NCBI RefSeq assembly: GCF_041080675.1
Contig: NZ_CP163520.1
Coordinates: 7,221,501 to 7,285,500, forward strand
Direction of reading: 5' to 3'
Source: Streptomyces sp. cg36
GTDB taxonomy: Bacteria; Actinomycetota; Actinomycetes; Streptomycetales; Streptomycetaceae
Length of the DNA: 64,000 bases
Positions 1-38,111 of this stretch are shown piece by piece. Numbering within the stretch: the stretch's first letter is position 1; each line of letters starts with the position of its first letter. Both the position numbers and the translations under genes were made by a program. The notes under the pieces were generated by a model that was not told the origin of the DNA, did not search any database, and saw only the letters and a program-made list of their open reading frames with translations.

Positions 1-3000
1 GGCCTCAAGAGCGCCTTCGCCGCGCTCGCCGAGGAGGCGCCGGACCCGCTGGGCGAGCCCGCCCGGTGCGGCATCGGCTCGGTCAAGAGCAACATCGGGC
101 ACCTCGAACTGGCCGCGGGCGTGGCCGGGGTGGTCAAGACGCTGTTGCAGATGAAGCACGGCGAGCTGGTCGAGAGCCTGCACTGCGCGGAGCTCAACCC
201 CTATCTCGACCTCGCGGAGGGCCCCTTCCACGTGGTGCGCGAGCGGACGCCCTGGCGGCGGCTGCGCGACGCCGACGGCGCCGAGGTGCCGCGCCGCGCC
301 GGTGTCAGCTCGTTCGGGTTCGGCGGGGTGAACGCCCATGTCGTGCTGGAGGAGTACCGGGGCGGCGAGGCCCGGCCCGAGGCGGCCGGGAACCGGGCGG
401 CCCTGGTCGTCCTGTCGGCCCGTACGGACGAGCAGCTCACCGGCCGGGCCCGGGACCTGCTCGGCCATCTGACGCACCACCAGGTGACGGACGCTCAACT
501 TCCCGCTCTGGCACACACGTTGCAGACCGGCCGCGACGCCATGGAGGAGCGCCTCGCCGTGGCCGTCACCTCGGTGGCCGAGCTGCGCGACCGGCTCGCC
601 CGCCTCCTGGCCGGTGACCCGGACGGCTGGCACCGGGGGTCCGCGCCCCGCCGCGCCCCGAAGGCCGCCGGGCGCGACACCGCCCGCCCGGCCGCCGCGC
701 CCGCCCGGCCGAACACCGGGGACGACGCGCGCGTCCTGGCCGAGTGGGTCGCCGGGCACCCGGCCGACTGGCAGCGGCTGTACGCCCCGGGCGCCCGCCC
801 GGAGCGGCTTGGCCTGCCCGCGTACCCGTTCGCCGACGAGCGCTACTGGGCGGGCCGCACCCGCCGCCCGGCCGCACCGGCCCACTCCCACCCGCTGCTG
901 CACCGGGCCGCGTCCGACGCCGCCGACGGGGCGCTCTCGTACGAGTCGCGCTTCGACGGCAGCGAGCCGTTCCTGCGCGACCACCGCGTCCAGGGCGGCC
1001 GGGTGCTGCCCGGCGCCGCGCACCTGGAGATGGCGCGCGCCGCGCTCGCCCGGGTGACCGGCCCGGAGCGCGCCGACCGCCTGCGGCTCTGCGACGTCGT
1101 GTGGCTGCGCCCCGCGCTGTGCGGGCCGGACGGCCTCGACCTGCGCGTCACGGTCCGCGAGCCCGTCGAGGGCGCGGGAACGTACGAGTACGCCATCCAC
1201 AGCGTCGGCCGCGACGGCGAGCGCACCCTGTGCAGCCAGGGCCGGGCGAACGTGACGGACGGCGCCCCGGGCCGCCCGCCGCTCCTGGCCGAACTGCGCG
1301 CCACCTGCTCGCAGGCGTACACGGCCGACGAGCTGTACGGCCTGTACGCGAACGTCGGCATGGAGTACGGCCCGGCCCACCGCTCCCTCGCGGGGCTCGG
1401 CGTGGGCGCCGACGCCGAAGGACGGCCGCAGGTCCTGGCCGAGCTGCGCCTTCCGGCGGCGGCCGAGCCCGTGGACCGCTACCGGCTGCACCCGAGCATC
1501 GTCGACGGCGCCCTCCAGGCCACGATCGGCCTCGGCCTGAGCGCCGCCGCGCGCGCCGGGCAGGCCGGGCGGCCCGCGCTGCCCTTCGCCCTGCAGGGGC
1601 TCCTCGCGGCGGGCCCGACCCCGGCGACGGCGTACGCCTGGATCCGCCACCAGGACGGCAGCCGGCCCGACGCCCCGTCCGCCAAGCTCGACGTGACGGT
1701 CCTCGACGAGCGCGGCCGGGTGTGCGTGGAGCTCACCGGGCTGAGCGCCCGGGTGCTGCCGGGCGGCCCCGGCGAGCGGCCCGTGCCCGTGGCCGCGCCG
1801 CAGCCGGCTCCGGCGCCCCTGCCCGACGGCGACCGCGCCCTGGAGTACATCCGCGAGCAGCTGGCGGGCGCGCTCGAAGTCGCCCCCGAGCGGCTGGACG
1901 TGGACACCCCGCTGGAGCACTACGGCATGGACTCCATGATGGCGATGGAGCTCACCCGCCATCTGGAGGGGCCGTTCGGGCCGCTCTCCAAGACGCTGTT
2001 CTTCGAGGTGCGCACCATCAGGGCGCTGAGCGAGCACTTCCTGGCCGAGTACCCGGAGCAGGTGCGGGCGGCGCTGGGCGCGTCCGGCGCCCAGCCGGTG
2101 ACCGCGCCCGCCGCCGCGGCGGCGGAGCCCGCCGGCGCGTCCGCCGGCACGGCCGTCGCCGAGCGGCGCGGCCCGGGGGCGCACACCGACATCGCCGTCG
2201 TCGGCGTGGGCGGGCGCTACCCCGAGGCCGAGGACCTCGACGCCTTCTGGCGGAACCTGCGCTCCGGCCGCGACTGCGTCCGGGAGGTGCCCGGGGACCG
2301 CTGGGACCACCGGGAGCACCCGGGCGGCAAGTGGGGCGGCTTCCTCGACGGCGTCGACCGGTTCGACCCGCTGTTCTTCCACATCTCGCCGCGCGAGGCC
2401 GAGTACCTCGACCCGCAGGAGCGCCTGTTCCTGGAGTGCGTCCACCACACCCTGGAGGACGCCGGGCACACCGGCGAGAGCCTGGCCGCGGCCGGGAAGG
2501 TCGGTGTGTTCGTCGGGGTGATGTACGAGGAGTACCAGCTGCACGGCGCCCAGGCGCAGGCGCGCGGGCACCAGGTCGCGCTCTCGGGCAGCCCGTCGTC
2601 CATCGCCAACCGCGTCTCGTACTTCTACGACTTCCACGGGCCGAGCATGGCCGTGGACACCATGTGCTCGTCGTCGCTGACCGCGATCCACCTCGCCTGC
2701 GAGGCGATCCGCAGCGGCCAGTGCGCCTCGGCGGTGGCGGGCGGGGTGAACGTCAGCGTCCACCCCAACAAGTATCTGATGCTCAGCCAGGGCAAGTTCA
2801 CGGCGAGCGACGGCCGCTGCCGCAGCTTCGGCGAGGGCGGCGACGGCTATGTGCCCGGCGAGGGCGTCGGCGCGGTCCTGCTGAAGCCGCTGGACCGGGC
2901 GATCGCCGACGGCGACCACATCCACGCCGTCATCAAGGGCACCGCGCTCAACCACGGGGGCCGCACCCACGGCTTCTCCGTGCCGAGCCCGGTGGCGCAG

Positions 3001-6000
3001 GGCGAGGTCATCGCGGCGGCACTGGCCGAGGCCGCGGTCTCCCCGGCCGAGCTGAGCTACCTCGAAGCCCATGGCACCGGCACCGCGCTCGGCGACCCGA
3101 TCGAGATCGCGGGCCTGGTCAAGGCGTTCCGAACGGCCGGTGACGGCACCCAGCCGCAGCGCCTGGCGATCGGCTCGGTCAAGTCCAACATCGGCCACTG
3201 CGAGAGCGCGGCCGGGATCGCCGCGGTCACCAAGGTGCTGCTCCAGCTCAAGCACCGCGAGCTGGTGCCGAGCCTGCACTCGGCCGTGCCCAACCCGCAC
3301 ATCGACTTCGAGCGGACGCCGTTCCGGGTCCAGCAGCACCTGGAGCCGTGGCACCGCCCGACGCTCGTCACCGACGGCGAGGAGCGTGAACTGCCGCGCG
3401 TGGCAGGGGTGTCGAGCTTCGGCGCGGGCGGCTCCAACGCCCATGTGATCCTCGCCGAGTACGAGCCGGAGGCCGCGTACCACCGGGCGCCCGGCGAGGC
3501 GGCCCGGCCGGAGGCCGTGGTGCTGTCCGCCATGAGCGAGCCGCAGCTCGTCCAGCAGGCGCGGCGACTGCTGGCCCGCGCCGAGGAGTTGACCGACGCG
3601 GACCTCGCGGCCGTCGCCTTCACGCTCCAGACCGGCCGCGTCGCGCTCGACGAGCGCCTCGCCCTCACCGCCACCTCGATGGAGTCCCTGAAGCGGCAGC
3701 TGGCCGCCTTCGTCAGCGACCCGACCGCGTCCACCGCCGTGCTGCGCGGCACCGTACGGCCCGACGGCGAAGTGCCGCGCGAGCCGGCCGAGGCGGTCCT
3801 CGACCGGTGGGAGCGGGGCCGGTACGACGAGGTCCTGGCCGACTGGGTGCGCGGCCTCGCGGTGGACTGGGCGCGGCTGCGCGGTGCGGACGCACCCGTG
3901 CGGCGCATCGGCCTGCCGGGCTACCCGTTCGCCCGCGAGCGCCACTGGCTCGACACCGAGGACGCGAGCGGGCCGACGCCCCCGCCGTCCCGCGGCGACC
4001 TGCTGCTCCTGCGGCCGGTGTGGGAGACGGACCCCGGTGCGGCCCCGGCCGCGGCCGAGGAGCACGCCGAGCACCACGTCCTCCTGATCGGCTCGCTGGA
4101 CGCCGCCGGGCGGGACGCGTACGCCTCCGCGCTGGCCGGAGCCGCCTCCTTCGACGTGGTGGACCCGGGCGAGGGGCCGCTGGACGCCCGCTTCCTGGAC
4201 GTGACCCGGCGGGTCTTCGACCGCACCCGGGAACTCCTGGCGGGCGCCCCGCGCCGCCCCGCGCTGCTCCAGGTGGTCCTGGTGGGTGACGGCGGCGACG
4301 CGGAGTGCTTCGGCGGCCTCACCGGGCTGCTGAAGACGGCCCAGCTGGAGAACCCCCGGCTGCGCACCCAGTACCTCGACTGCCTCGACGGGGCCGCTGC
4401 CCCGGCCGTCGCCGCCCGGCTCCTCGCCGACGCGGGCCGTACGGCAGAGCCCGAGGTGCGGTACCGGGACGGGCTGCGCCAGGTGCGACGGCTGGCCGAG
4501 GTGGCGCCCGCGCGCCCGGCGGCGGCGCCGTGGCGCACCGGCGGCGTCTATCTGATCACCGGCGGCGCCGGGGCCCTCGGCCTCGTCGCGGCGCGCGAGA
4601 TCGCCGACGGCGTCGAGCACGCCACGGTCGTCCTCACCGGCCGCTCCCCGCTGGACGCGGAGCGGTCGCGGGCGCTCGACGCCCTGCGGGCGGCCGGGCT
4701 GCGCGTCGACCACCGGCGGGCGGACGTCACCGACCGCGCGGACGTGGAGGCGCTGATCGCGTACGTGGCCGACACCCACGGGCCGCTCACCGGCATCGTG
4801 CACAGCGCCGGTGTGCTGAGCGACGGCTTCCTCGCCAACAAGACGCCCGAGGAGCTGGGCCGCGTGCTCGCCCCCAAGGTGTCCGGCCTGGTCAACCTGG
4901 ACGAGGCGAGCAAGGGGCAGCCGCTGGAGCTCTTCTGCTGCTTCTCCTCCACCAGCGGCGCGTTCGGCAACCCCGGGCAGGCCGACTACGCGGCGGCCAA
5001 CGCCTTCATGGACGCCTACGCGGCCCACCGCGAGCGTCTCGCGGGCGCCGGGCTGCGCCACGGCACGACGCTCTGCGTGAACTGGCCGCTCTGGGCGGAC
5101 GGCGGCATGCGGGTCGACGCCGCGGCCGAGGAACGGCTGCGCCGGATGGACCTCGTGCCGCTGGCCACCGACAGCGCGCTGCACGCGCTGCGCGTCGGCG
5201 CGGCCGGGCGCGACAACGGTCTCGACGAGGGCCGCCTGCTGGTCGTCGCGGGCGACCGGGCGGCGCTGCTGCCGCGACTGACGAACCGTCACAGGACAAT
5301 CGAGGAAGGGGAAGTGGTGCAGGAGGAGCAGTCCGCACGGGTCATCGACCGCGCGCTGACGGACCGGACCGTCCGCCATCTGCGGCAGCTGCTCGCCGGG
5401 GCCCTCAAGCTCGGCGTCGAGCGGCTGGACGCCGACACGGCGCTGGAGCGGTACGGCATGGACTCGGTCGTCGCGACCGATCTGATCGCCCGCCTGGAGG
5501 AGCACTTCGGGCCGCTGTCGAAGACCCTGTTCTTCGAGATCCAGACGGTCCGGGCGCTGGCCGAGCACTTCGTGGCCGAGTACGAGGACGAGCTGCGGAC
5601 GATGTTCGGCCGGCCCGCCCCGGCGCGCCCGGCCCCGGCCCCGGCCCTTGCCCCGGCCCCGGCCCTTGCCCCGGCCCCGGCCTCGGCCCTTGCCCCGGCT
5701 TCGGCTCCGGCCGCTGCCCCGTCCGCCGGGCCGGTGCGTCCGGCGGCCGTCGCCTCCGTGGCCGGGCGCGCCCCGCGCCCCGCGCCCGTCGACCAGGACG
5801 TCGCGATCATCGGGATCGGCGGACGCTACCCGCAGGCCGACGGCCTGGACGCGTTCTGGGGCAACCTGCGCTCCGGCCGGGACAGCGTCACCGAGGTGCC
5901 GGCCGAGCGCTGGGACCACGGCGCGCTGTTCGACGCCGACCGGGACGCGCACGGCCGCACCTACTGCCGCTGGGGCGGCTTCCTCGACGGGATCGACCGC

Positions 6001-8096
6001 TTCGACCCGCTGTTCTTCGGCATCTCGCCCCGCGAGGCCGAGGCGATGGACCCGCAGCAGCGGCTCTTCCTGGAGACGGTGTGGGAGCTCCTGGAGGGCG
6101 CCGGGGTCACCCAGGACGCCATCGAGCGGCGCTACGGCCGCCGGGTCGGCGTGTACGTCGGCTCCATGTACCAGATGTACCGGGCCGACGAGGCCGACGT
6201 GCCCCGCGCGGCGCTGACCTCGGCGACCTCGTACAACATGATCGCCAACCGGGTCTCGTACTTCTTCGGGCTCGAAGGCCCCAGCCTGGCCGTGGACAGC
6301 ATGTGCTCGTCCTCCGCCCAGGCCGTCCACCTCGCCTGCGCGGACCTGCTGCGCGGCGAGAGCGAACTGGCCATCGCGGGCGGGGTCAACCTCACCGTCC
6401 ACCCTGACAAGTACCTCGCGCTCTCCCAGGCGCAGCTCCTGGGCAGCCACCCCGGCAGCCGCAGCTTCCGCGACGGCGACGGATACCTGCCCGCCGAGGC
6501 CGTCGGCGCGGTGCTCCTGAAGCCGCTGGCCGCCGCACTCCGCGACGGCGACACCGTGCACGCGGTCATCAAGGGCAGCGCCTCGCTCCACGGCGGCCGG
6601 GCCAACGGCTTCATGACGCCCAGCCATCGCACCCAAGTCGCCGTGATGCGGAGGGCGTTGGAGCGGTCGGGTGCCTCGCCCGAGTCGATCGGCTACGTGG
6701 AGGCGGCGGCCAACGGGTCGGCGCTGGGCGACGCCGTCGAGTTCGCCGCGCTGCGCGAGGTCTTCGGCGCCGTGTCCGAGCCGGTCGCGCTCGGCTCGGT
6801 GAAGTCCAACCTCGGCCACCCCGAGGCGGCCTCCGGCATCGCCCAGCTGACCAAGGTGGTGCTCCAGCTGCGCCACCGCGAGCTCGCCCCGCTGGTCGAG
6901 GGCGGCGCCGCCAACCCGAACCTCGACTTCGAGGGCGGACCCCTCACCCTGGCCGAGCGGCTCACGCCGTGGCAGCCGCGCACCGCCGAGGGGCGGGGCG
7001 TGCGGCGCGGTCTGATCAACTCGGTGGGCGCGGGCGGCAGTTACGTCAGTCTGGTGGTCGAGGAGGCCCCGGCGGCGGCCGTGGAAGCGGTGGCGGACGA
7101 CGGCGGGCCGCAGCTCGTCGTGGTCTCCGCCAAGGACGCCGGGCGACTGCGTGACGCAGTCCGTCAGCTGCTCGACTTCGTCGAGGACGACACCACCACC
7201 GCCCTCGCGGACCTCGCGTACACCCTGCAGACCGGGCGCGAGGCGCTGCCGGAGCGGTTCGCGGCCGTCGTCGGCTCGCGGGCCGAGCTGCGGGCCGCGC
7301 TCGCCCGCCACCTGGGCGAGGCGGACGGCGCCACCGGCGCGTTCGGGATCGAGGTCCACACGGGCAACACCGAGGACGGCGCCCACCCGCTCACCGCGCT
7401 GCTCTCCGGCGCGCACGGCGAGGCGTTCGTCGCCGCGCTGGTCGCCGACGGCGACCTGGACCGGCTCGCCGGGCTCTGGACCGCGGGCGCCGGCGTGGAC
7501 TGGGCGGCGCTGCACCAGGGCCGCCCCCGCAGGCGGATCGCCCTGCCGACCACGCCGTTCCGGCGCGAGCGGTACTGGATCGGCCGCACCTGGCAGCGGC
7601 CCGAGCCCGCGGCCCGCCCGGCCCAGGGGGGTCCGCGCCGCCCCGGTGCCGCGCAGGCCCCGGACACCCAGCGCCCGGCCCCGGACGCCGGGCACCGGGC
7701 GGCGGACGATCCGACCGCCTACCTCGCGGGCTTCTTCGCCGACGCCCTGGGCCTGGACGCGGGCGAGCTGCCCGCCGACAAGGACCTGCACGGCTTCGGC
7801 GTCGACTCCATCCTCTGGTCGCGGCTCCAGCGCCGGGTCGAGGCCGACCTCGGTCTGCGCCTGTCCACCCGCGACATCCTGGAGGGCGCCACCCTCGCAC
7901 GCATCGCGGCCCGGCTCACCGGGCTCCGAGCCGAGACCGCGCCGCCCGCCACCGACCCGGCCACCGACCCGCTCGTCGGGACGGGGCCGGACACCGAAGA
8001 CCCCCGTGCCGCCAAGGCCCGGGCGCTGGAGCAGTTCCGGCAGGGGCACGTCAGCCTCGAAGATCTGAAGGCACTCATGAAGGAAGCACCGAGCGC

Positions 8097-8100
<4 letters not shown>
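1..8100 (+). CDS. trans-AT modular polyketide synthase, 5'-truncated (KS-DH-ACP-KS-KR-ACP-KS0-ACP)
   Basis: The frame is open from base 1, so the gene starts upstream; 2699 residues are visible. In order: the end of a KS (GHLELAAG, His34); a DH with HRVQGGRVLP (His328) and the second catalytic site at Asp502; ACP1 (GMDS, Ser645); KS2 (from about 730; Cys889, HGTGT His1024, GHCES), which looks able to elongate; a KR (ITGGAGALG about 1518, Tyr1663); ACP2 (Ser1822); an Ala/Pro linker; KS3 (from about 1933; Cys2102, but EAHGTGT reads EAAANGS, Ala2236), a non-elongating KS0; and ACP3 (GVDS, Ser2603). No AT domain or GHSxG motif is present, and each KS is followed by the LPxYPFxxERYW linker, so malonyl units must come from the AT protein at 29911. 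The C-terminus (about 2675-2695) is a short docking-like helix pair. The stop overlaps the next gene's GTG. Trans-AT status is firm; KR stereotype is not resolved. Confidence 0.96.
5645..5698 (+). repeat. 18-base tandem repeat coding an Ala/Pro linker
   Basis: Two exact 18-base copies (unit CCCTTGCCCCGGCCCCGG, 5645-5662 and 5663-5680) are followed by a 12-base partial copy at 5687-5698. They lie in frame between ACP2 and KS3 of the PKS and encode a flexible Leu-Ala-Pro-Ala-Pro linker. Copy number could vary between strains without breaking the frame. Confidence 0.85.
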
Positions 8101-24844
<16,744 letters not shown>

Positions 24845-24966
24845 CGGCCGGCGCGGAGGGGTGACGGCTCCCGTCCCCTCCCGCCCGACCGGCCCCGCCC
24901 GTTTCCTGCTTCCCTTGTCCCCCTGCCCCTTCTGTTCCCCCTGTTCCCCCTAGTGATGGTGTGACT
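24845..24966 (+). other. pyrimidine-rich gap before the beta-branching genes
   Basis: About 120 bases separate NRPS 2 from the donor ACP, the only real gap between cluster genes. From about 24866 to 24951 the plus strand is almost all C and T and includes a tandem CTGTTCCCC. No purine-rich ribosome site precedes the ACP start. The gap may hold a separate promoter for the beta-branching and AT genes; I see no clear -10/-35 pair. Confidence 0.4.
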
Positions 24967-25218
24967 ATGAAGAGCGAAGAAATCCTGCCCCTGATCCACG
25001 AGGCGATCGTCGAGGTCCTGCCGGAGCTCGACGGGCACGACTTCCGGGAGACCGACTCCCTGGACGGCCTCGGCGCCAACTCGATGGACCGCGCCGAGAT
25101 CGTGATGATCGTGCTTGAGGCGATGAACCTGGAGATTCCGCTGGTCGACACGTTCGGCCCGCAGAACCTGGGCGAGCTCGCCCGCCACCTCGCCGACAAG
25201 ACCTCGGCGGCCCGGTAA
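24967..25218 (+). CDS. discrete donor acyl carrier protein of the beta-branching cassette
   Basis: 83 residues from ATG; an in-frame GTG six bases upstream would give 85. The phosphopantetheine site is GANSMDRAEI, where Ser would carry the arm. The GANSxDRAE context is typical of the stand-alone ACPs that work with HMG-CoA-synthase-like enzymes (AcpK in the bacillaene system) rather than of modular ACPs. In the known pathway malonyl-ACP is decarboxylated on this carrier to acetyl-ACP, which the HMGS adds to a beta-keto intermediate. The next gene starts one base after the stop. No convincing Shine-Dalgarno sequence lies upstream, so the start is uncertain by two codons. Confidence 0.93.
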   Translation: MKSEEILPLIHEAIVEVLPELDGHDFRETDSLDGLGANSMDRAEIVMIVLEAMNLEIPLVDTFGPQNLGELARHLADKTSAAR

Positions 25219-25219
25219 C

Positions 25220-26443
25220 GTGCCCGAGATCGCCGTCACCGGGCTGGGGGTGACCACCGCCGTCGGCCAGGGCAAGGCCGCCTTCGCCGAGGCGCTCTTG
25301 GCCGGGGCGCACCGGTTCGCCGTCATGGAGCGGCCCGGCCGCCAGGCCGGCACCCGGTTCGTCGGCGCGGAGATACCCTCCTTCGCGCCGACGGGCCGGC
25401 TGGCCGCGCGCGAGCTGCGGACCGTCTCCCTCACCGGCCAGGTCCTCCTGGCCACCCTGGAGGAGGCGTGGACCGAGGCGCGCCTCGACGAGGTCCCCGC
25501 CGAGCGCGTCGGCCTGGTCGTCGGCGGCAGCAACCTCCAGCAGCGCGAACTCACCCTCGCCCAGGACCGCCACCGCGACCGGCCCCGCTTCCTGCGGCCC
25601 AGTTACGGGATGTCCTTCCTGGACACCGATCTGTGCGGGCTCGCCACGGCGGCGTTCGGCATCCGCGGCCTCGCCCACACCGTGGGCGGGGCCTCGGCCA
25701 GCGGCCAGCTGGCGGTGATCGAGGCGGCCGAGGCGGTGGCGTCCGGCCGGGTCGACGCGTGTGTGGCGGTGGGCGCGCTGATGGACCTCTCGTACTGGGA
25801 GCACCTCGGCCTGCACGCCATGGGCGCGATGGCGCCGGAGAGCGGCGCGGACGCGCCGGAGCTGGCCTGCCGTCCGTTCGACGCGGGCCGGGGCGGCTTC
25901 GTCTTCGGGGAGGCGTGCGGCGCGCTGGTCGTCGAGCGCGTGGGCGCCCGCCCGGCGCCCGTGCGGCCGTACGCGCAGCTGAGCGGCTGGTCGGTCCAGC
26001 TGGACGGCAACCGCAACCCCAACCCGTCGCTGGAGGGCGAGGTGCGGGCCATCGGCCAGGCCCTGGAGCGGGCCGGACTCGCGGCGGACGACATCGACTA
26101 CGTCAACCCGCACGGCACGGCCTCACCGGTCGGCGACCGCACCGAGGCCGACGCCCTGCTGGCCGCCGGGCTCACCCGGGCCCGGGTCAACGCCACCAAG
26201 TCGATCACCGGACACGGACTCACCGCGGCCGGGGCGGTGGAGGCGGTCGCCGTGCTGCTCCAGATGCGGCACGGCAGGCTGCACCCCACCCGCAATCTGG
26301 TGGAGCCGATCGAGGACCGGCTGCGCTGGGTGCGCGGCGAGGCCGTCGAGGCCGAGATCGAGCACTGTCTGAGCCTGAGCATGGGATTCGGCGGCATCAA
26401 CACGGCACTTTGCATGAGCAAGTGCGAATCACGGAGAGCGTAA
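25220..26443 (+). CDS. decarboxylating ketosynthase of the beta-branching cassette (Cys to Ser)
   Basis: 407 residues; GTG start one base after the ACP stop. It has a complete KS fold with NPHGTAS and TGHGLT, so both catalytic His are present, but the nucleophile motif normally written ACASG reads ASASG, with Ser159 in place of Cys. This substitution marks the free-standing KS proteins of beta-branching cassettes (PksF type), which decarboxylate malonyl-ACP to acetyl-ACP and do not condense. It sits between the donor ACP and the HMGS gene, as expected. The initiator KS of a type II system is the main alternative, but the partners argue against it. Confidence 0.93.
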   Translation: MPEIAVTGLGVTTAVGQGKAAFAEALLAGAHRFAVMERPGRQAGTRFVGAEIPSFAPTGRLAARELRTVSLTGQVLLATLEEAWTEARLDEVPAERVGLVVGGSNLQQRELTLAQDRHRDRPRFLRPSYGMSFLDTDLCGLATAAFGIRGLAHTVGGASASGQLAVIEAAEAVASGRVDACVAVGALMDLSYWEHLGLHAMGAMAPESGADAPELACRPFDAGRGGFVFGEACGALVVERVGARPAPVRPYAQLSGWSVQLDGNRNPNPSLEGEVRAIGQALERAGLAADDIDYVNPHGTASPVGDRTEADALLAAGLTRARVNATKSITGHGLTAAGAVEAVAVLLQMRHGRLHPTRNLVEPIEDRLRWVRGEAVEAEIEHCLSLSMGFGGINTALCMSKCESRRA

Positions 26444-26447
26444 GGTC

Positions 26448-27704
26448 ATGTCCCGCGTCGGTATCGAAGCGATGAACGTGTTTGGCGGCTCGGCAGTGCT
26501 GGACGTCAAGGCACTGGCGCAGCACCGGGGGCTCGACCTCCCGCGCCTGGAGAACCTCCTGATGAGGGAGAAGACCGTGGCGCTCCCCTTCGAGGACCCG
26601 GTGACCTTCGGCGCCAACGCCGCCCGGCCGCTCCTCGACCGGCTGAGCGCCGAGGAGAAGGACAGCATCGAGCTGCTGATCACCTGCACCGAGTCGGGCA
26701 TCGACTTCTCCAAGTCGACCAGCACCTACCTCCACGACCAGCTGGGCCTGAGCCGCAACTGCCGGATGTTCGAACTCAAGCAGGCGTGCTACGCCGGTAC
26801 CGCCGGCTTCCAGATGGCCTGCAACTTCATCCTGTCCCGGACGTCACCGGGCGCGAAGGCGCTGGTCATCGCCACCGACATCTCCCGCTATCTGCTGGAG
26901 GACGGCGACGAGGCGGCGGCCCAGGAGTGGGCGTACGCGGAGCCCAGCGGCGGCGCGGGCGCGGTCGCGATGCTGATCAGCGACACCCCGCACGTCTTCC
27001 AGCTCGACGTGGGAGCCAGCGGCTACTACGGCTACGAGGTCATGGACACCTGCCGCCCGGCCCCCGACAGCGAGGCCGGTGACGTCGACCTGTCCCTGAT
27101 GTCGTACCTGGACTGCTGCGAGCAGTCCTACCGGGCGTACGAGAAGAAGGTGACGGGCGCCGACTACCGCGACACCTTCCAGTACCTCGCCTTCCACACC
27201 CCCTTCGGCGGCATGGTCAAGGGCGCCCACCGCACGATGATGCGCAAGGTCGCCGGGGCGAAGGGCGCCGAGATCGCCGAGGACTTCGAGCGCCGGGTGC
27301 TGCCGGGCCTGGAGTACTGCGGCCGGGTCGGCAACATCATGGGCGCGACCGTCTTCCTCTCGCTGGCCAGCACCGTCTGCAACGGCGGCTTCGACGCGCC
27401 CCGGCGCCTGGGCTGCTTCTCCTACGGGTCGGGCTGCTGCTCGGAGTTCTACAGCGGCGTGGTCACCCCGGACGGGGCCGCCCGGCTGAAGGAGATGGGC
27501 ATCGCGGCCCATCTGGACGGCCGCTACCGGCTCTCCCTGGACGAGTACGACCGGCTGCTGAGCGCCCGCGACTTCATCCGCTTCGGCACCCGCGACACGA
27601 CCGTCGGCCAGGACCTCGTCGCGGCCACCGGCAACGGCGGCGCGCCCCGGCTCGTCCTGCGGGAGATCAAGGACTACCACCGGGAGTACGCATGGGTGGG
27701 CTGA
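26448..27704 (+). CDS. HMG-CoA synthase-like enzyme (HMGS) for polyketide beta-branching
   Basis: 418 residues, four bases after the KS gene. Catalytic Cys114 lies in KQACYAGTAG and His250 in AFHTPFGGMV, both diagnostic of the HMG-CoA synthase family; length is normal. In trans-AT clusters this enzyme (PksG type) adds the acetyl group from the donor ACP to the beta-keto carbon of a chain held on an assembly-line ACP, giving a 3-hydroxy-3-carboxymethyl intermediate. The next gene starts inside its last codons (13-base overlap), so the products are probably made in fixed ratio. Which module is branched cannot be told here; none of the three visible ACPs shows the tandem arrangement usual for branching, so the target is probably upstream. 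Confidence 0.95.
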   Translation: MSRVGIEAMNVFGGSAVLDVKALAQHRGLDLPRLENLLMREKTVALPFEDPVTFGANAARPLLDRLSAEEKDSIELLITCTESGIDFSKSTSTYLHDQLGLSRNCRMFELKQACYAGTAGFQMACNFILSRTSPGAKALVIATDISRYLLEDGDEAAAQEWAYAEPSGGAGAVAMLISDTPHVFQLDVGASGYYGYEVMDTCRPAPDSEAGDVDLSLMSYLDCCEQSYRAYEKKVTGADYRDTFQYLAFHTPFGGMVKGAHRTMMRKVAGAKGAEIAEDFERRVLPGLEYCGRVGNIMGATVFLSLASTVCNGGFDAPRRLGCFSYGSGCCSEFYSGVVTPDGAARLKEMGIAAHLDGRYRLSLDEYDRLLSARDFIRFGTRDTTVGQDLVAATGNGGAPRLVLREIKDYHREYAWVG

Positions 27705-29914
27705 CGGACGGACCGGTCCCCACCACGCTCCGGCTGCGCGAACAGGGCACCACCTGGTACGTGCGGATCCACCGGCCCGAGGCGGACAACGCGCTCAACG
27801 AGACCCTGGTGCGCGAGCTCACCGAGGTCCTGACCCGTGCCTCGCGCTCGTCCGCCACCGTCGTGGTGCTCGAAGGGCTGCCCGAAGTGTTCTGCTTCGG
27901 CGCCGACTTCGGGGCGATCGGCGAGGCCGCGCGCGAGGGCGGGCGCACGGCGGCCGACCCCGAGCCGCTCTTCGACCTGTTCCGCCTCCTCGCGTACGGC
28001 GACTTCCTGTCGGTCGCGCACGTGCGCGGCAAGGCCAACGCGGGCGGGGTCGGGCTGGTCGCCGCGAGCGATGTGGTGATCGCCGACGAGAGCGCGGTGT
28101 TCAGCCTCTCGGAGCTGCTCTTCGGGCTGATACCGGCCGTGGTGCTCCCGTTCCTGATCCGCCGCACCGGCTTCCAGCACGCCCACTACCTGGCCGCCAC
28201 CACCCGCACCGCGGACGCGGCGCGGGCCTGCGAGTGGGGGTTGGTCGACGCGTACGGGCCGGACAGCGAGGCGCTGCTGCGCACCCACCTCCAGCGGCTG
28301 GGGCGGCTGTCGAAGAAGGCGGTGCGGCGGTACAAGGCGTATCTGCGCGAGCTGTCGCCGGTGACCGAGCACGCCAAGAGCGCGGCGCTGGCCACCAACC
28401 GGCTGGTCTTCGAGGACCCGGAGAACGTCCGGGCCATCCAGCGGTACGCGCGGGAGGGCGTCTTCCCGTGGGAGGCGTCCCCGGCCGGACCCGACGAAGA
28501 AGCGGCTCCCCGCCCCGAAGCGGCTCCCCGCCCCGCCGGCGCCCCCGCGTCCTTCGCCGTGGGGCCCGAGGCGCTCGGGAGCGCCCGCTTCCGTGCCGCG
28601 CACGGCGTCCGGTACGCCTACGCGGCGGGCTCGATGTACAAGGGCATCGCCTCGGTCGAGCTGGTCACCGCGATGGGCCGGGCCGGGCTGCTCTCCTTCT
28701 TCGGCACCGGCGGCCTCGGCACGGACGCGATCGACGACGCCCTCACCCGGATCCGCCGGGCGCTCGACCAGGGGCAGCCGTTCGGCGTGAACCTGCTGAG
28801 CAGCCCGCAGGAGCCGGAGCAGGAGATGCGCACCGTGGAGCTGTATCTGCGCCACGGCGTCCGTACGGTGGAGGCGTCCGCCTACATCACCCCCACCCCG
28901 GCCCTGGTGCGCTACCGGCTCGCCGGGCTCTCGCGCGACGCGGCCGGAAACGTGACCCAGGCCCACCACGTCCTGGCCAAGGTCTCCCGCACCGAGGTCG
29001 CCGAGCGGTTCCTGCGGCCCGCGCCGCCCGAGGTTGTACGGGAGCTGCTGGCGCGGGGACTGGTCACCGCCGAGCAGGCCGAGCTCGGCGCGCGGCTGCC
29101 GCTCGCCCAGGACCTGTGCGTCGAGGCCGACTCGGCGGGCCACACCGACGGCGGCAACGCCTATGTGCTGATGCCCGCCGTGCGCGCGCTGCGCGACCGC
29201 GTCTGCGCACAGGAGGGGTACGCGGAGCCGGTGCGCCTGGGGGCGGCCGGGGGCATCGGCACCCCGGAGGCGGCGCTCGCCGCCTTCACCCTGGGCGCCG
29301 ACTTCGTGATGACCGGCTCCATCAACCAGTGCACGGTCGAGGCGGGCACCAGCGACGCCGTCAAGGACATCCTTGGGGAACTCGGCGTCCACGACACGGA
29401 GTACGCGCCCGCCGGGGACATGTTCGAGGTCGGCGCGAAGGTCCAGGCGGTGCGCAAGGGGCTGTTCTTCCCGGCGCGCGCCCAGAAGCTGTACGAGCTG
29501 TACCTGCGCCACGACTCCCTCGACGACCTGGACGCGCGCACCCGCGACACGCTGGAGCGGAAGTTCTTCCGGCGCCCGATCGACGAGGTGTGGGCGGAGA
29601 CCCGGGCCCATGTCGCGCGGCGCTTCCCGGAGCGGCTCGCGGAGATCGAGCGCAGCCCCAAGCAGAAGATGGCGCTCGTCTTCCGCTGGTACTTCGTCCA
29701 CTCCACCCGCCTGGCCATGGCGGGCAGCACCGAGCAGCGGGTCGACTACCAGATCCACTGCGGTCCGGCCATGGGCGCCTTCAACGCCTGGGTGCGGGAC
29801 ACCCCGTTGGAGAAGTGGCGCGAGCGCCGGGTGGCCGCCGTCGCGGAGCACCTGCTGCGGGAGACATCGGCCCTGCTGGGCCAACGGCTTGGAACGTATG
29901 GGAGTCACTCATGA
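27692..29914 (+). CDS. fused ECH1 dehydratase and trans-acting FMN enoylreductase
   Basis: 740 residues. Residues 1 to about 262 match the PksH-type enoyl-CoA hydratase that removes water from the HMG-like intermediate (EGLPEVFCFGADF, HVRGKANAGGVG, FSLSELLFGLIP). After an Ala/Pro-rich linker (about 263-292), residues from about 295 to the end are a PfaD/PksE-type NAD(P)H-dependent FMN enoylreductase (YAAGSMYKGIASVE, FFGTGGLGT, AAGGIGTPEAA, MTGSINQCTVEAGTS). In the systems I know, ECH1 is a separate protein and the ER is either separate or fused to an AT, so this pairing is unusual. The ER could serve an assembly-line module or reduce the branch. The gene overlaps HMGS by 13 bases and the AT gene by 4. 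Confidence 0.93.
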   Translation: MGGLTDGPVPTTLRLREQGTTWYVRIHRPEADNALNETLVRELTEVLTRASRSSATVVVLEGLPEVFCFGADFGAIGEAAREGGRTAADPEPLFDLFRLLAYGDFLSVAHVRGKANAGGVGLVAASDVVIADESAVFSLSELLFGLIPAVVLPFLIRRTGFQHAHYLAATTRTADAARACEWGLVDAYGPDSEALLRTHLQRLGRLSKKAVRRYKAYLRELSPVTEHAKSAALATNRLVFEDPENVRAIQRYAREGVFPWEASPAGPDEEAAPRPEAAPRPAGAPASFAVGPEALGSARFRAAHGVRYAYAAGSMYKGIASVELVTAMGRAGLLSFFGTGGLGTDAIDDALTRIRRALDQGQPFGVNLLSSPQEPEQEMRTVELYLRHGVRTVEASAYITPTPALVRYRLAGLSRDAAGNVTQAHHVLAKVSRTEVAERFLRPAPPEVVRELLARGLVTAEQAELGARLPLAQDLCVEADSAGHTDGGNAYVLMPAVRALRDRVCAQEGYAEPVRLGAAGGIGTPEAALAAFTLGADFVMTGSINQCTVEAGTSDAVKDILGELGVHDTEYAPAGDMFEVGAKVQAVRKGLFFPARAQKLYELYLRHDSLDDLDARTRDTLERKFFRRPIDEVWAETRAHVARRFPERLAEIERSPKQKMALVFRWYFVHSTRLAMAGSTEQRVDYQIHCGPAMGAFNAWVRDTPLEKWRERRVAAVAEHLLRETSALLGQRLGTYGSHS
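28499..28534 (+). repeat. exact 18-base tandem duplication in the ECH-ER linker
   Basis: The unit GAAGCGGCTCCCCGCCCC occurs twice head to tail (28499-28516 and 28517-28534) in the stretch coding the Ala/Pro linker between the two enzymes. It keeps the reading frame, adding six residues. Confidence 0.9.
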
Positions 29915-31767
29915 AATCGGTCTACGTCTTCCCCGGCCAGGGCTCGCAGCACAAGGGAATGGGGGCCGGCCTCTTCGAGAAGTTCCCCGACCTGGTGGCC
30001 CAGGCCGATGCCTGCCTCGGCTACTCCATCGAGGAGCTCTGTCTGCGGGACCCGGACAAGGTGCTGGCCAGGACCGAGTACACCCAGCCCGCGCTGTACG
30101 TGGTCAACGCCCTGACGTATCTGGACCGTACGGCGGGCGGCGAACTGCCCGACGTGGTGGCCGGGCACAGCCTGGGGGAGTACTGCGCGCTGTTCGCGGC
30201 GGGCGCCTTCGACTTCCTGACCGGCCTCCAACTGGTGCGCAGACGCGGCGAGTTGATGAGCCGGGCGCCCAAGGGCGCGATGGCGGCCGTCGTCCGCCTC
30301 GACCAGCGGCGGGTCGACGGGATCCTCAAGGGGCTGCCATTTCGCAACCTCGACATCGCCAACATCAACTCCCGTGAGCAGTGCATCGTCTCCGGCGAGT
30401 ACGACGAGGTCTTCGACCCCGCGCTGCGCACCGCCTTCACCGACGCGGGGGCGGCCTTCATCCCGCTGAACGTGAGCGCGGCCTTCCACTCGCGCTGCAT
30501 GACGGAGGTGGAGGAGGAGTTCGCCCGCTATCTGGCCGGTTTCGAGCTGCGGAAGCTGACGATTCCGGTCGTGGCGAACTACACGGCCCGCCCCTATCCG
30601 GAACAGGGGTACGCCGAGTATCTGACGCGCCAGATATCCAGCCCGGTGAAGTGGTACGAGTCGATGTCCTGGCTGATCGGCCAGGGGTACCGCACCTTCC
30701 ACGAGATCGGCCCCGGCCGGGTCCTGGCCAAGCTGAGCGACCAGATCCTCAAGGACCCGCTGCCGCTCGCCGAGGAGCCCCCGGCACCCGCGGTGAGCGC
30801 CCGGCCGCGCACCGAGCTGGTGTTCATGTACGGCGGCCAGGGCACCCAGTACCACCAGATGGGCCGCGAGCTGTACGACACCCACCCGGCGTTCCGCCGC
30901 GCCCTCGACCGGTGCAGCGCGGCCCACCGGGCGGCGGGCGGCGCCTCCCTGGTGGACGCGATCTACGACGACGCGCGCAAGGGCAAGGAGTACGACTCCG
31001 TCCTCACCACGCACGCGGCGCTGTACAGCATCGGCCACAGCCTCACCGAGGTCCTGCGCGAGGAGGGCGTGCGGCCGGACGCGGTCCTGGGCCACAGCCT
31101 GGGGGAGTACGTCGCGGCCACCGTCGCCGGGTCGATGGACTTCGAGGACGGGCTGCGGCTGGTGATGCGCCAGGCCCGGCTGCTGGCCGAGCGGGGTGAC
31201 GGCGGCATGCTGAGCGTGCTCGCGGCACCGGCGCTCTTCGCCGCGAGGCCCGACCTGTTCGGCGCGGTGACCCTGGCCGGGGTCAACTACGACGGCAACT
31301 TCCTGGTCAGCGGCTCGGCCGACCGGCTCGCGGAGCTGCGCGCCGCACTCGACGGGGAGGGCGTGATCGCGGTGCGCCTCCCGGTCCGCCAGGCGTTCCA
31401 CTCCCCGCACCTGGACGTCATCCGCCCCGACGTCATGGACGCGGCCCGCGCGGTGCCGCTGCGCGCCGCACGGCTGCCGCTGTACTCCGCCACGCACGCG
31501 ACGGTCGTGGACCCGGGTGCGCCGGGGTACCTGGAGCGCTATCTGTGGGACGTGATCCGCGAGCCCATCCGCTTCGACGCGCTGATGGCGGCGGCGTTCC
31601 CGGAGCCCGAGCGCCACTTCTTCGTCGACCTGAGCGCAAGCGGTTCCTTCGCCAACTTCCTCAAGCACGGCTACGGCCCGGCCCACCGGGGAGCGCCCGC
31701 GATCAACCAGTTCGGCAACAACGCGGCCTCCCTGCGCAGGCTCCGCGAGGCGCTGCCCCAGGAGTGA
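29911..31767 (+). CDS. tandem trans-acyltransferase (malonyl AT plus AT-like acylhydrolase)
   Basis: 618 residues; ATG overlaps the upstream stop by 4 bases. AT1 (1 to about 300) has GQGSQ, GHSLGEY (Ser87), AFHSR and ANYTARPY, and keeps Arg112, the residue that binds the malonyl carboxylate. AT2 (about 305-610) has GGQGTQ, GHSLGEY (Ser396) and AFHSPH, but the equivalent of Arg112 is Gln421 (VMRQARLL against VRRRGELM). Loss of that Arg is known from the proofreading acylhydrolases of trans-AT systems (PedC type). The simplest reading is that AT1 loads malonyl units onto the AT-less modules and AT2 clears stalled chains. It is the last gene of the cluster on this side, followed by a hairpin. 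Confidence 0.95.
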   Translation: MKSVYVFPGQGSQHKGMGAGLFEKFPDLVAQADACLGYSIEELCLRDPDKVLARTEYTQPALYVVNALTYLDRTAGGELPDVVAGHSLGEYCALFAAGAFDFLTGLQLVRRRGELMSRAPKGAMAAVVRLDQRRVDGILKGLPFRNLDIANINSREQCIVSGEYDEVFDPALRTAFTDAGAAFIPLNVSAAFHSRCMTEVEEEFARYLAGFELRKLTIPVVANYTARPYPEQGYAEYLTRQISSPVKWYESMSWLIGQGYRTFHEIGPGRVLAKLSDQILKDPLPLAEEPPAPAVSARPRTELVFMYGGQGTQYHQMGRELYDTHPAFRRALDRCSAAHRAAGGASLVDAIYDDARKGKEYDSVLTTHAALYSIGHSLTEVLREEGVRPDAVLGHSLGEYVAATVAGSMDFEDGLRLVMRQARLLAERGDGGMLSVLAAPALFAARPDLFGAVTLAGVNYDGNFLVSGSADRLAELRAALDGEGVIAVRLPVRQAFHSPHLDVIRPDVMDAARAVPLRAARLPLYSATHATVVDPGAPGYLERYLWDVIREPIRFDALMAAAFPEPERHFFVDLSASGSFANFLKHGYGPAHRGAPAINQFGNNAASLRRLREALPQE

Positions 31768-34181: not shown

Positions 34182-35117
34182 ATGTCACCGATCGAACTGA
34201 TCCGGATCGTCTCGCGCGACTCGCCCATGGCGCTCGCGCAAGTGGAACGTGTACGTGCGGAACTCGCGGCTCTCCATCCCGGCGTGGCCACCGAGGTCGT
34301 CCCGGTCAAGACGACCGGCGACAAGTGGATGGGAGACCTCTCGCTGGTCGAGGGGAAGGGCGCGTTCACCAAGGAGGTGGACGCCGCGCTGCTCGCGGGC
34401 GAGGCCGATCTGGCAGTGCACTGCGTCAAGGACGTCCCCGCCGACCGGCCGCTGCCCGCCGGTACCGTCTTCGCCGCCTTCCTCAAGCGCGACGACATCC
34501 GCGACGCCCTCGTCCACCCCGGCGGCAGCACCCTCGACCAACTGCCCCCGGGCACCCGCATCGGCACCTCCTCCGTCCGCCGCATCGCCCAACTCGCCGC
34601 CTCCCACCCCGAACTCCGCTGCGTCCCCATGCGCGGCAACGCCAACCGCCGACTGGAGAAGCTGGCCGCGGGCGAGGCCGACGCCCTGCTCCTCGCCGCC
34701 TCCGGCCTGGAACGCATCGGCCGTACGGACGTGATCACCGAGATCCTCTCGCCCGAGGTGATGTGCCCGCCGATCGGCGCCGGGATCCTGGCCCTCCAGT
34801 GCCGCGAGGGCGACCGGGAGCTGATCGACCTGGTGAGCGATCTCGGCGACCCCGACGCCCATCGCGAGGCGACCGCCGAGCGGATGTTCCTGCACGTCCT
34901 GCAGGGCCACTGCAACAGCCCGATCGCCGGATACGCGAGGGCCGCGGTGGGCGGTGACCTGTCGCTGCGGGCCTGTGTGTTCACCCCCGACGGCAAGACC
35001 GTCCTCAACGCCCACGAGTGGGCGGGACCCCTCGACCCGGCCACCCTGGGCACCTCGGTCGCCGTCACCCTGCTGCGCCAGGGCGCCCGGGAGCTGATCG
35101 ACTCCATCGCCCACTGA
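34182..35117 (+). CDS. hemC: hydroxymethylbilane synthase (porphobilinogen deaminase)
   Basis: 311 residues. It polymerises four porphobilinogens into hydroxymethylbilane in tetrapyrrole synthesis. Visible signatures: [11 protein letters not shown] near the N-terminus, KTTGDKW, the catalytic Asp in HCVKDVPAD (most HemC proteins have HSMKDLP), RIGTSSVRR and RGNANRRL for substrate phosphates, and [12 protein letters not shown] with the Cys that anchors the dipyrromethane cofactor. All catalytic residues are present. It stands alone, away from any hemA/hemD/hemB genes in the window, so it may be a second copy beside a main hem operon elsewhere. The start is the ATG preceded by GTGGGGG. Confidence 0.95.
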
Positions 35118-35235
35118 TCCGGGCCGGCCCCGCCCCGGCCGCCCGAGTCCTGAGCCGCCTAAGTCTTAAGTCGGAGGCGAAGCCCGACCGCGGACCGATC
35201 CGCCGGAAAGTGCCAGCCGATTAGCATAGCGCTCG

Positions 35236-35283
35236 CTCGCCGGCTTCGTCGTCGATGCCCAGTCCATCGGCGAAGCCGGCGAG
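35236..35283 (+). promoter_or_regulatory. long imperfect hairpin upstream of the radical SAM gene
   Basis: CTCGCCGGCTTCG (35236-35248) pairs exactly with CGAAGCCGGCGAG (35271-35283), and inside the loop CGATG pairs with CATCG. The structure ends 53 bases before the radical SAM start codon. It could be the hemC terminator, a leader attenuator or a protein-binding site. Confidence 0.5.
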
Positions 35284-35336
35284 AGCGTAGGTTCAGTGGG
35301 GACGGACAAAGCGACTGGACCGGAGGACGTCAGCAC

Positions 35337-36638
35337 ATGCGCACCCGTACCGATGAGGTCGAAGGACTGATGGAGCGGTTCCCGGGAGTGCCCCGGGAAG
35401 CCGTGATCAAGGAGGACCTGCTGCGCGGGGGGATGGCCTTCGACGCGTCGGCCCTCAGTGACAACGAGTCCGGCGAGGTCAAGCCGAAGTCGTACTTCAT
35501 CTTCTCGTTCGACCACGGCACGCTGCCCGAGCTCGGCGAGGCCGCGCTGCGCCGGCCGCCCGAGGAGATCATCCTCACCGGCGGTCCGTACGACCTGCGC
35601 CGGACCGTCGTCTCGGTGCGGGTCAACCCGTCCTCGCCCTACCGGGTGGCCGCCGACGAGGACGGTCTGCTCGGCCTCTACCTCGACGGCAAGCGGATCT
35701 CCGACGTCGGTGTGCCGCCGATGCCCGAGTACTACCGGCACAAGCTCTCCAACGGGAAGTCCGTGATGGAGGTCGCCCCCACCATCCAGTGGGGCTATCT
35801 GATCTACCTCACCGTCTTCCGGGTCTGCCAGTACTTCGGCGCCAAGGAGGAGTGCCAGTACTGCGACATCAACCACAACTGGCGCCAGCACAAGGCGGCG
35901 GGCCGTCCGTACACCGGGGTGAAGGACGTCGACGAGGTCCTCGAAGCGCTGGAGATCATCGACCGGTACGACACCGCGAAGGCGTCCACCGCGTACACGC
36001 TGACCGGTGGCGCGATCACCAAGACGGTCGGCGGGCGCGACGAGGCCGACTTCTACGGCCGCTACGCCAAGGCCATCGAGGAGCACTTCCCCGGGCGGTG
36101 GATCGGCAAGGTCGTGGCCCAGGCGCTGCCGCGCGACGACGTCCAGCGCTTCAAGGACTACGGGGTGCAGATCTACCACCCCAACTACGAGGTGTGGGAC
36201 GAGTACCTCTTCAAGATGTACTGCCCGGGCAAGGAGCGCTACGTCGGCCGCGACGAGTGGCACAAGCGGATCCTCGACTCGGCGGAGATCTTCGGCGCCC
36301 GCAACGTCATCCCCAACTTCGTGGCGGGCGTGGAGATGGCCGAGCCCTTCGGGTTCAAGACGGTCGACGAGGCCATCGCCTCCACCACCGAGGGCCTGCG
36401 CTTCTTCATGTCGCACGGCATCACGCCCCGCTTCACCACCTGGTGCCCGGAGCCCACCACCCCGCTCGGCAAGGCCAACCCGCAGGGCGCGCCGCTGGAG
36501 TACCACATCCGGCTCCTCGAGGCGTACCGGTCGACGATGGAGGAGTACGGGCTGACGTCCCCGCCCGGATACGGCGAGGCGGGCCCGGGCAAGGCGGTCT
36601 TCTCGGTGAGCTCCTTCATGGACAGCCTGACGGTGTGA
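35337..36638 (+). CDS. radical SAM family protein with CX8CX2C cluster motif
   Basis: 433 residues; CGGAGGA lies about nine bases before the ATG. The probable 4Fe-4S site is CQYFGAKEECQYCDIN (Cys164, Cys173, Cys176), spaced CX8CX2C instead of the canonical CX3CX2C. Around it the layout fits a radical SAM barrel: TLTGGAITKTVGG resembles the GGE-type SAM-binding strand, followed by QALPRDDVQRFKDYGVQ and NFVAGVEMAEPFGFKT. The first 150 residues are an extra domain with no motif I recognise. It has no obvious partner; hemC is upstream in the same direction but separated by a hairpin. Substrate unknown. The likely alternatives are a biotin-synthase-like or a heme-related radical SAM enzyme; I cannot choose. 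Confidence 0.88.
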   Translation: MRTRTDEVEGLMERFPGVPREAVIKEDLLRGGMAFDASALSDNESGEVKPKSYFIFSFDHGTLPELGEAALRRPPEEIILTGGPYDLRRTVVSVRVNPSSPYRVAADEDGLLGLYLDGKRISDVGVPPMPEYYRHKLSNGKSVMEVAPTIQWGYLIYLTVFRVCQYFGAKEECQYCDINHNWRQHKAAGRPYTGVKDVDEVLEALEIIDRYDTAKASTAYTLTGGAITKTVGGRDEADFYGRYAKAIEEHFPGRWIGKVVAQALPRDDVQRFKDYGVQIYHPNYEVWDEYLFKMYCPGKERYVGRDEWHKRILDSAEIFGARNVIPNFVAGVEMAEPFGFKTVDEAIASTTEGLRFFMSHGITPRFTTWCPEPTTPLGKANPQGAPLEYHIRLLEAYRSTMEEYGLTSPPGYGEAGPGKAVFSVSSFMDSLTV

Positions 36639-37748: not shown

Positions 37749-38111
37749 CGTGGGCTGCTCCTTCGTGTGGCAGGGCCACCCCCACTCTGACGCCGCTCGG
37801 CGGTGTGCGCACGTCCGGAGGCACGGTCGGGGGGACCGATCCTGTCCTCTGGATGAAATCGCGCCTAAACCTCAATATTAAAGATTCAATGTTCTCGTGG
37901 CTTTAGAAACCCAACCAGAGGCACCTTTGCGCCTTCTTCTTCATGAGTGTCCAACTGGTGGACAGCCCTTTGCCCGCGCTTGACCTGCAACTTCGAGCGA
38001 TCGCTCTGTGGCGGAGCGTGACCGGATCCGGCTCCAGTGGCCCCCGGCACCCCTGGGCGTGGACAACACTCATGTTCGTTCTTCGGTCCCTGACTGACAG
38101 GAGTGTTCGAT
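37749..38111. other. 363-base intergenic control region before the SSI gene
   Basis: It holds an AT-rich stretch (about 37866-37910), an inverted repeat TGTCCA/TGGACA with five-base spacer (37948-37964), and a perfect 12-base palindrome GAGCGATCGCTC (37995-38006). These are candidate regulator sites for the divergent small gene and the inhibitor gene. ACAGGAG at 38097-38103 is the inhibitor's ribosome site. Confidence 0.5.

Follow-up and report, generated by a model that had tools for sequence, protein, structure and literature searches.

A hangtaimycin-type assembly line with a serine module 17

A trans-acyltransferase (trans-AT) polyketide synthase/nonribosomal peptide synthetase (PKS/NRPS) cluster in Streptomyces sp. 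cg36 was found to match the hangtaimycin assembly line in architecture but to carry a serine pocket in the adenylation (A) domain of module 17. Its product is probably a deoxyhangtaimycin congener with dehydroalanine (Dha) in place of dehydrobutyrine (Dhb), one CH2 lighter than deoxyhangtaimycin. The source stretch, hereafter the window, is 64,000 nucleotides long (contig NZ_CP163520.1; G000:C1:7221501-7285500) and lies inside a 9.02-Mb genome; negative window positions lie to its left. The original prediction covered window positions 1-31767, which proved to be the right-hand portion of a larger cluster. Its reading of this part as the end of a trans-AT PKS with two bimodular NRPS proteins, a beta-branching cassette and a tandem AT was confirmed by Pfam/NCBIfam scans, and the search left of base 1 that it had proposed uncovered about 42 kb of further assembly line, again hangtaimycin-type, with two more A domains (Ala-like and Gly-like).

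The left edge of the cluster lies at about window -44353, where an amidase and a type II thioesterase are encoded on the minus strand, both with counterparts in two other genomes (G351 and G300), and the right edge is the tandem AT ending at 31767. The line consists of five abutting megasynthase genes, A1 (4718 aa), A2 (7303 aa), A3 (4638 aa, running into the window), B1 (2523 aa) and B2 (3059 aa), with 18 modules and 23 carrier domains in all; 12 ketosynthase (KS) domains are found in the three colinear PKS genes and a 13th in the beta-branching cassette. Because the B1 and B2 frames are this long and their domain E-values reach 2.8e-241 in the Pfam/NCBIfam scans, chance can be excluded as the source of their content. 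Modules were assigned from Pfam scans of A1-A3 cut at KS starts and from Pfam/NCBIfam scans of B1 and B2, as follows:

A1: GNAT-ACP; 1 KS-DH-KR-ACP; 2 KS-KR-ACP; 3 KS-DH-ACP; 4 KS-ACP
A2: 5 C-A-PCP; 6 KS-DH-KR-MT-ACP-ACP; 7 KS-ACP; 8 C-A-PCP; 9 KS-KR-ACP; 10 KS-MT-alpha/beta-hydrolase
A3: ACP-ACP-ACP; 11 KS-KR-ACP-ACP; 12 KS-DH-ACP; 13 KS-KR-ACP; 14 KS-ACP
B1: 15 C-A-PCP; 16 C-A-FkbM MT-PCP
B2: 17 C-A-PCP; 18 C-A-NMT-PCP; terminal C

The portion of these megasynthases inside the window contains the following features:

1..8100, plus strand: C-terminal part of A3 (HtmA3-like; gene start at window -5816), with the end of module 12, module 13 (KS-KR-ACP) and module 14 (KS-ACP)
889-1770 and 1843-2037, plus strand: DH and ACP of module 12, within A3
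8097..15668, plus strand: B1 (HtmB1-like), modules 15 and 16, C-A-PCP-C-A-FkbM MT-PCP
9594..11060, plus strand: A15, pocket DVWHFSLID, serine
12867..14231, plus strand: A16, pocket DFWNVGMVH, threonine
14424..15002, plus strand: FkbM-type O-methyltransferase embedded in module 16, DVGANIG (DxGxNxG)
15665..24844, plus strand: B2 (HtmB2-like), modules 17 and 18 and terminal C, C-A-PCP-C-A-NMT-PCP-C
17645..18364, plus strand: A17 core, serine pocket DVWHFSLVD
19022..20344, plus strand: C18, the condensation domain downstream of module 17, HHLIEDATS, without CmodAA motif
20462..21844, plus strand: A18, pocket DVQAGGAIA, Trp by homology
22073..22420, plus strand: N-methyltransferase embedded in module 18, EIGCGTG
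23462..24814, plus strand: terminal C domain, homologue of PDB 8Z0Q, with RPWGIFDG replacing the HHxxxDG stretch

A recent tandem duplication is suggested by the two module 11 ACPs (A3 residues 1428-1536, window about -1533 to -1209), whose 14-residue stretches around the active site are identical.

The hangtaimycin (htm) line of Streptomyces spectabilis CCTCC M2017417 is described as five multidomain trans-AT PKS/NRPS enzymes with GNAT loading and a discrete duplicate AT (PMC8456789, PMC10624959). Its modules 2-3 form an internal dehydrating bimodule, whose KS3 has Cys-Asn-His residues and no flanking subdomain after it (PMC8456789), and methyltransferases are carried by module 6 (C-methylating), module 16 (O-methylating, FkbM-type, DxGxNxG) and module 18 (N-methylating) (PMC10624959). 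The window cluster likewise has five multidomain trans-AT PKS/NRPS enzymes and a discrete duplicate AT, with a GNAT loading domain and the internal dehydrating bimodule KS-KR-ACP-KS0-DH-ACP in its first PKS. Its KS3 reads DTACSSS / VNGSGS / NIGH, that is Cys-Asn-His, without post-KS linker domains or flanking subdomain, and the module numbering up to 18 and the methyltransferases of modules 6, 16 and 18 also agree. Since the full line, including the sequence left of base 1, matches the published architecture in the features tested, it is taken as hangtaimycin-type and not as a new lipopeptide class; that the window cluster, by identity with HANGTAIMYCIN, is a hangtaimycin-type line is near certain. 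A new acyl-Ser-Thr(OMe)-Ser-(N-Me-Xaa) lipopeptide unrelated to hangtaimycin would suit bases 1-31767 alone, but it is contradicted by the upstream 42 kb, which carry hangtaimycin-type loading, bimodule, Ala-like and Gly modules, and was rejected as scarcely credible. The choice of hangtaimycin as comparator in the original prediction was therefore sound in the features tested, and its acyl-Ser-Thr(OMe)-Ser-(N-Me-Xaa) scaffold holds for the pockets and for the methylation pattern, with two different embedded methyltransferases (FkbM in module 16, NMT in module 18), but describes only the C-terminal part of a longer polyketide-peptide with Ala-like and Gly modules. The C domain past the last PCP, the single ECH of the cassette and the upstream 42 kb had not been part of it.

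A protein annotated 'non-ribosomal peptide synthase [Streptomyces spectabilis]' (P0113), found among 120 proteins listed, is 75% identical to B1 residues 1500-2520 and is very likely HtmB1. The G351 cluster has a B1 92.7% identical to P0113 and a B2 identical to P0126 of Streptomyces sp. YIM 121038. All five of its megasynthases are colinear with those of the window at 61-72% identity, and its donor ACP, KS, HMG-CoA synthase (HMGS), ECH-ER and tandem AT follow in the same order at 66-84% (HMGS 84%, tandem AT 66%); it differs in having a Thr A17, with a core identical to its own A16, and a cytochrome P450 (P450) adjoining the tandem AT. The terminal C domain of the window, with its RPWGIFDG, matches PDB 8Z0Q/8Z0R/8Z0S ('Special condensation domain in NRPS') with 716 bits over 492 residues, although 8Z0Q is nearer to the G351 terminal C (972 bits). 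The original prediction had named a close, colinear characterised cluster with another product as what would overturn it; such a cluster exists, but its module 17 A domain differs.

One further genome is labelled hangtaimycin-like by cluster prediction in the available text of PMC13119414. No description of a serine-type hangtaimycin line, or of hangtaimycin together with dehydroalanine, was found in the literature searched, which lay outside subscription journals. Three hangtaimycin-type B2 relatives (P0132, P0136 and P0164) possibly represent a third product type: they are extended by ~280-450 aa, their first A domain is displaced by a similar distance, and their A18 signature is different. 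Remoter relatives of the module 16 FkbM region, matching over part of B1, are found in CB01201 and G247 (L017, 64%; L051, 53%), and no full B2 counterpart was seen in these loci.

Substrate pockets and the divergence of A17

Pockets were taken from one alignment of all six A domains and read DMVQFGLVY (A5), DILQLGLIW (A8), DVWHFSLID (A15), DFWNVGMVH (A16), DVWHFSLVD (A17) and DVQAGGAIA (A18). We take A8 to be a Gly pocket, A15 and A17 Ser pockets and A16 a Thr pocket, in agreement with the Ser, Thr, Ser, unassigned order read earlier from the window. The A5 and A18 pockets are identical between the window and G351, and that of A8 differs at one position. From hangtaimycin chemistry, A5 would be Ala-like and A18 would activate Trp (PMC8456789, PMC9475180); Xaa of module 18 is most likely Trp, because its pocket is the same as in G351 and hangtaimycin gives an N-methyl-Trp/Dhb diketopiperazine (PMC10624959, PMC9475180). 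The Dhb of hangtaimycin implies threonine at module 17, in contrast to the serine pocket of the window.

When 60 domain rows were compared between the window and G351, A17 was the lowest, at 50% identity, with DH1 next at 52%, whereas the other five A domains gave 70-82%. The flanks of A17 are conserved (C17 75%, PCP17 76%), and in 100-residue windows against eight threonine-type proteins an identity of ~80% drops to 32-43% at B2 residues ~500-900 and then recovers. In a PDB comparison, the A17 core scored 306 bits with Txo1 and Txo2, 295 with 8XJZ, 282 with EntF, which we take to be a serine enzyme, and 281 with a fuscachelin A domain; LgrA chains top the list at 347 bits, which is the sum of two stretches (204 for the better one; 184 for the next chain). 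That module 17 of the window takes serine is considered highly likely.

Among 21 other B2-like proteins, chosen from 120 listed, a Ser code at the first A domain was found in 3 (P0121, P0122 and P0123). A Thr code is combined with the same A18 signature in another 8 and with a different A18 in 3; a further 3 are Thr-like at both A domains, and a single A domain is visible in 4. In all three threonine-clade genomes with both domains, the A17 core matches the A16 of the same genome at 97-100% identity (L014 100, G351 100, strain P1-3 97), whereas the A17 core of G351 is only 82% identical to the A16 of L014 and strain P1-3. The corresponding A16/A17 DNA repeat spans 1454 bases at 96.2% in G351, whose assembly comprises two contigs, and 1295 bases at 99.9% in L014, a draft in which collapse is possible. 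A single clade for all A17 was rejected (p 1.3e-74), as was a single clade for all A16 (p 7.8e-53). Because A17 cores are near-identical to their own A16, diverged between genomes and incompatible with one-clade hypotheses, the sequences indicate that A16 and A17 of the threonine clade evolve in concert by gene conversion. The L014 repeat itself (8697-9991 and 13034-14328) is attributable either to gene conversion of very recent date or to collapse during assembly of the draft genome.

Origin of the serine A17 core

A search of the genome with the A17 core of the window gave one further match at E 1e-60, the A15 of the same line, which is 79% identical to it. In a first tree of 51 rows, built with hangtaimycin-type sequences only, serine A17 was nested in A15, but a separate A15 clade was compatible with an approximately unbiased test (p 0.448). 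A control set of 1223 A-cores (316 Ser-like) from other proteins, including those of a third search without a hangtaimycin-type orthologue among the best 120, contained two serine A domains equally close to A17, in P0148 (80%) and in P0218 from Arhodomonas (76%), both at the same position of B2-like bimodules. In an outgroup tree of 20 of the 51 first-tree rows and 21 others, hand-chosen, A15 formed one clade (100/99) and serine A17 fell outside it, without a settled placement; A15, serine A17, P0148 and P0218 grouped together as one clade (100/97), to the exclusion of the remaining serine-type A domains sampled. On the strength of these three results, A17 as a simple copy of A15 within the line was not upheld. 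A rooted flank tree (quick method) placed the serine clade (7 rows) and the threonine clade (10 rows) as sisters. Streptomyces melanogenes JCM 4398 (L009) and S. cinerochromogenes JCM 3385 (L012) are counted with the serine clade. Since the flank clades are sisters and serine A domains occur at the same place in P0148 and P0218, serine may be the older state at module 17 and threonine the overwritten form.

In the wollamide/desotamide system, an A-domain switch is attributed to intragenomic recombination (PMC9205934). The two cases are alike in that substrate change goes with exchange of an A-core inside conserved flanks; there, however, the donor is another NRPS locus, whereas in the window the related A-cores, A15 or A16, belong to the line itself. 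Bimodular NRPS proteins of 2950-3160 aa (P0145-P0239) make up a wider family, mostly with an RPWG-type terminal C motif, from many actinobacteria and Arhodomonas (P0218), whose first A domain is mostly Thr-like and at times Ser-like.

Dehydration of residue 17 and chain release

Dehydrating condensation domains (CmodAA) have a [K/R]SVLLAAH motif before C5 (PMC11342130). The corresponding stretch of C18 reads SPAALCHAAW in the window and SPAALFHAAW in G351, and the missing motif rules out C18 as a textbook dehydrating C domain. One alternative is that residue 17 stays Ser because the dehydration step rejects it, so that the product ends in cyclo-(Ser-N-Me-Trp) or an open peptide. The lack of the motif in C18 favours this outcome. 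Set against it, identity to G351, a relative of the Dhb maker, is 73% for C18 and 69% for the terminal C domain, and the P0148 and P0218 bimodules, known from sequence alone, also pair a Ser-type first A domain with the same kind of terminal C domain. Retention of Ser is accordingly regarded as unlikely, and Dha in the product as likely. The Ser assigned to residue 17 in the original prediction is thus right as to the pocket, but the residue itself is expected to be dehydrated.

Cytochrome P450 and C-42 hydroxylation

In the hangtaimycin pathway, a P450 hydroxylates C-42 of deoxyhangtaimycin (PMC10624959, PMC9475180), which is recorded as MIBiG BGC0002657 (PMC11448209). The htm cluster has this C-42 P450, whereas no P450 is found within the window cluster; genome-wide, 23 P450 match rows were obtained, the best 45% identical to the G351 enzyme. 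In G351 the P450 gene lies at 749637-750932, on the opposite strand, adjoining the tandem AT (end ~751039), ~7 kb past B2. With this protein as query against 10 genome rows including itself (G168 and G393 have the same coordinates and are probably a single genome), a counterpart was found only in G396 (85%), also ~7 kb past B2, and the remaining 8 rows gave 50% or less. From their position, the G351 and G396 enzymes would be the C-42 hydroxylases. Of this set, the P450 is absent in the six serine-type genomes (G000, G300, G392-G395) and present in both threonine-type ones; G397 (L017) has another architecture. As the two clades are two lineages, this pattern amounts to one or two events, not many. 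Two minus-strand P450s at window 56119-60373 were rejected as the C-42 enzyme, being 33-37% identical to that of G351, and look unrelated to the cluster.

Deoxyhangtaimycin is the nearest expected product, since it is the substrate of the C-42 P450 and the window cluster lacks that gene; it differs in that it contains Dhb, by relation to hangtaimycin, where Dha is predicted here. A product without the C-42 hydroxyl is favoured, though less firmly than Dha. The cluster might instead make hangtaimycin or deoxyhangtaimycin, with A17 loading Thr despite its pocket and any C-42 hydroxylation carried out by a P450 encoded elsewhere, a reading that draws on the colinearity of the other domains with the hangtaimycin-type line and on the P450 matches elsewhere in the genome. 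It conflicts with the serine pocket DVWHFSLVD, with the place of EntF, presumably a serine enzyme, among the PDB relatives with the best single stretches, and with the A17 of the sister clade, where a threonine core is kept as a copy of A16; it is therefore judged improbable, more so than retention of Ser.

Beta-branch and module 10

The cassette follows B2 in the order ACP, KS, HMGS, ECH-PfaD and AT-AT, with one ECH only:

24961..25218, plus strand: donor ACP, PRK07117
25220..26443, plus strand: KS, PRK07103, presumably decarboxylating, as assumed for this family
26448..27704, plus strand: HMG-CoA synthase homologue
27692..29914, plus strand: ECH1-type hydratase fused to a PfaD-family enoyl reductase
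29905..31767, plus strand: discrete tandem acyltransferase AT-AT (HtmA7-like)

Against PRK07112 the ECH scores 338 bits, against PRK07110 42 bits; we take these models to be PksH (ECH1) and PksI (ECH2), respectively. The PRK07110 cut-off (215), exceeded in 1 of 14 control genomes, is reached nowhere in this genome, and with no ECH2 the branch should retain its carboxylate. A Trp six residues past the active Ser, which we assume to flag beta-branching acceptor ACPs, occurs in 3 of the 23 carriers, exactly the three that open A3, so module 10 is read as the branching module; the same Trp is found on the three carriers opening A3 of G351, among the carriers of a cruder scan. Bongkrekic acid likewise has a carboxymethyl beta-branch (PMC12560621), with an HMGS cassette and a retained branch carboxylate, but there ECH2 is present and avoided, unlike the window genome, which has none above the model cut-off.

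At the end of A2, upstream of the triple ACP, module 10 carries a methyltransferase (LDLGCAYG) and an alpha/beta-hydrolase (GHSLGG; G000:C1:7214104-7215681, L007:9328-10905), a pair kept in all six other genomes searched. The available text of the hangtaimycin papers counts three methyltransferases only, and that of module 10 is not among them (PMC8456789, PMC10624959). The pair may act in forming the ring lactone in line: HMGS would put an acetate branch on the triple ACP, the methyltransferase would convert the retained carboxylate to a methyl ester, and the adjoining hydrolase would move this ester to the delta-hydroxyl from KR9, giving a six-membered unsaturated lactone. BioC and BioH models match module 10 with 25 and 41 bits, far under cut-off, and other families score better; because these matches are weak, a BioC/BioH-like pair embedded in a PKS module, common to hangtaimycin and the congener, is put forward as a doubtful possibility.

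Just outside the cluster, a hemC-type hydroxymethylbilane synthase adjoins a radical SAM protein (window 34182-36638), and a gene for a subtilisin-inhibitor-like protein lies at 38103-38561.

Predicted product

In the proposed pathway, GNAT would load acetate, and modules 1-4, with the internal dehydrating bimodule, would yield a (2Z,4E)-dienoyl starter. Module 5 would add an Ala-like unit and module 6 an alpha-methyl enoyl unit, module 7 would hand the chain on and module 8 would add Gly. Modules 9-14 would then build a long polyketide with the beta-branch set on the triple ACP of module 10, and modules 15-18 would add Ser, Thr(OMe), Ser and N-Me-Trp, before release by the unusual terminal C domain, probably in diketopiperazine form. 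Hangtaimycin itself bears a sorboyl-Ala end and a lactone besides the N-Me-Trp/Dhb diketopiperazine. Whereas the Dhb of hangtaimycin would be expected from Thr at module 17, the Ser pocket of the window would lead to Dha.

Several points weigh against this assignment. The product is predicted from genes alone, A-domain pockets can be relaxed, and A17 is only 2 points under the next-lowest domain, a DH, so that its divergence is conspicuous beside the other A domains and its own flanks but not beside all domains. In G351 as in the window, C18 is without the CmodAA motif, and a P450 could act from elsewhere, the best genome match being 45%. P0113 is equated with HtmB1, and 8Z0Q with HtmB2, by organism name or similarity rather than by accession, and Thr at module 17 of S. 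spectabilis is deduced from the Dhb in the product and from G351, not from its own sequence.

With the Dha congener as the preferred product, a previously unassigned cluster is turned into a specific and fast-to-test prediction, a hangtaimycin relative with Dha and without the labile hemiaminal behind hangtaimycin breakdown. The module 10 methyltransferase and hydrolase offer a concrete hypothesis for lactone formation. Comparison of the sister clades amounts to an A-core exchange experiment run by nature inside a single line, and the cut and join points that it shows would be useful for NRPS engineering.

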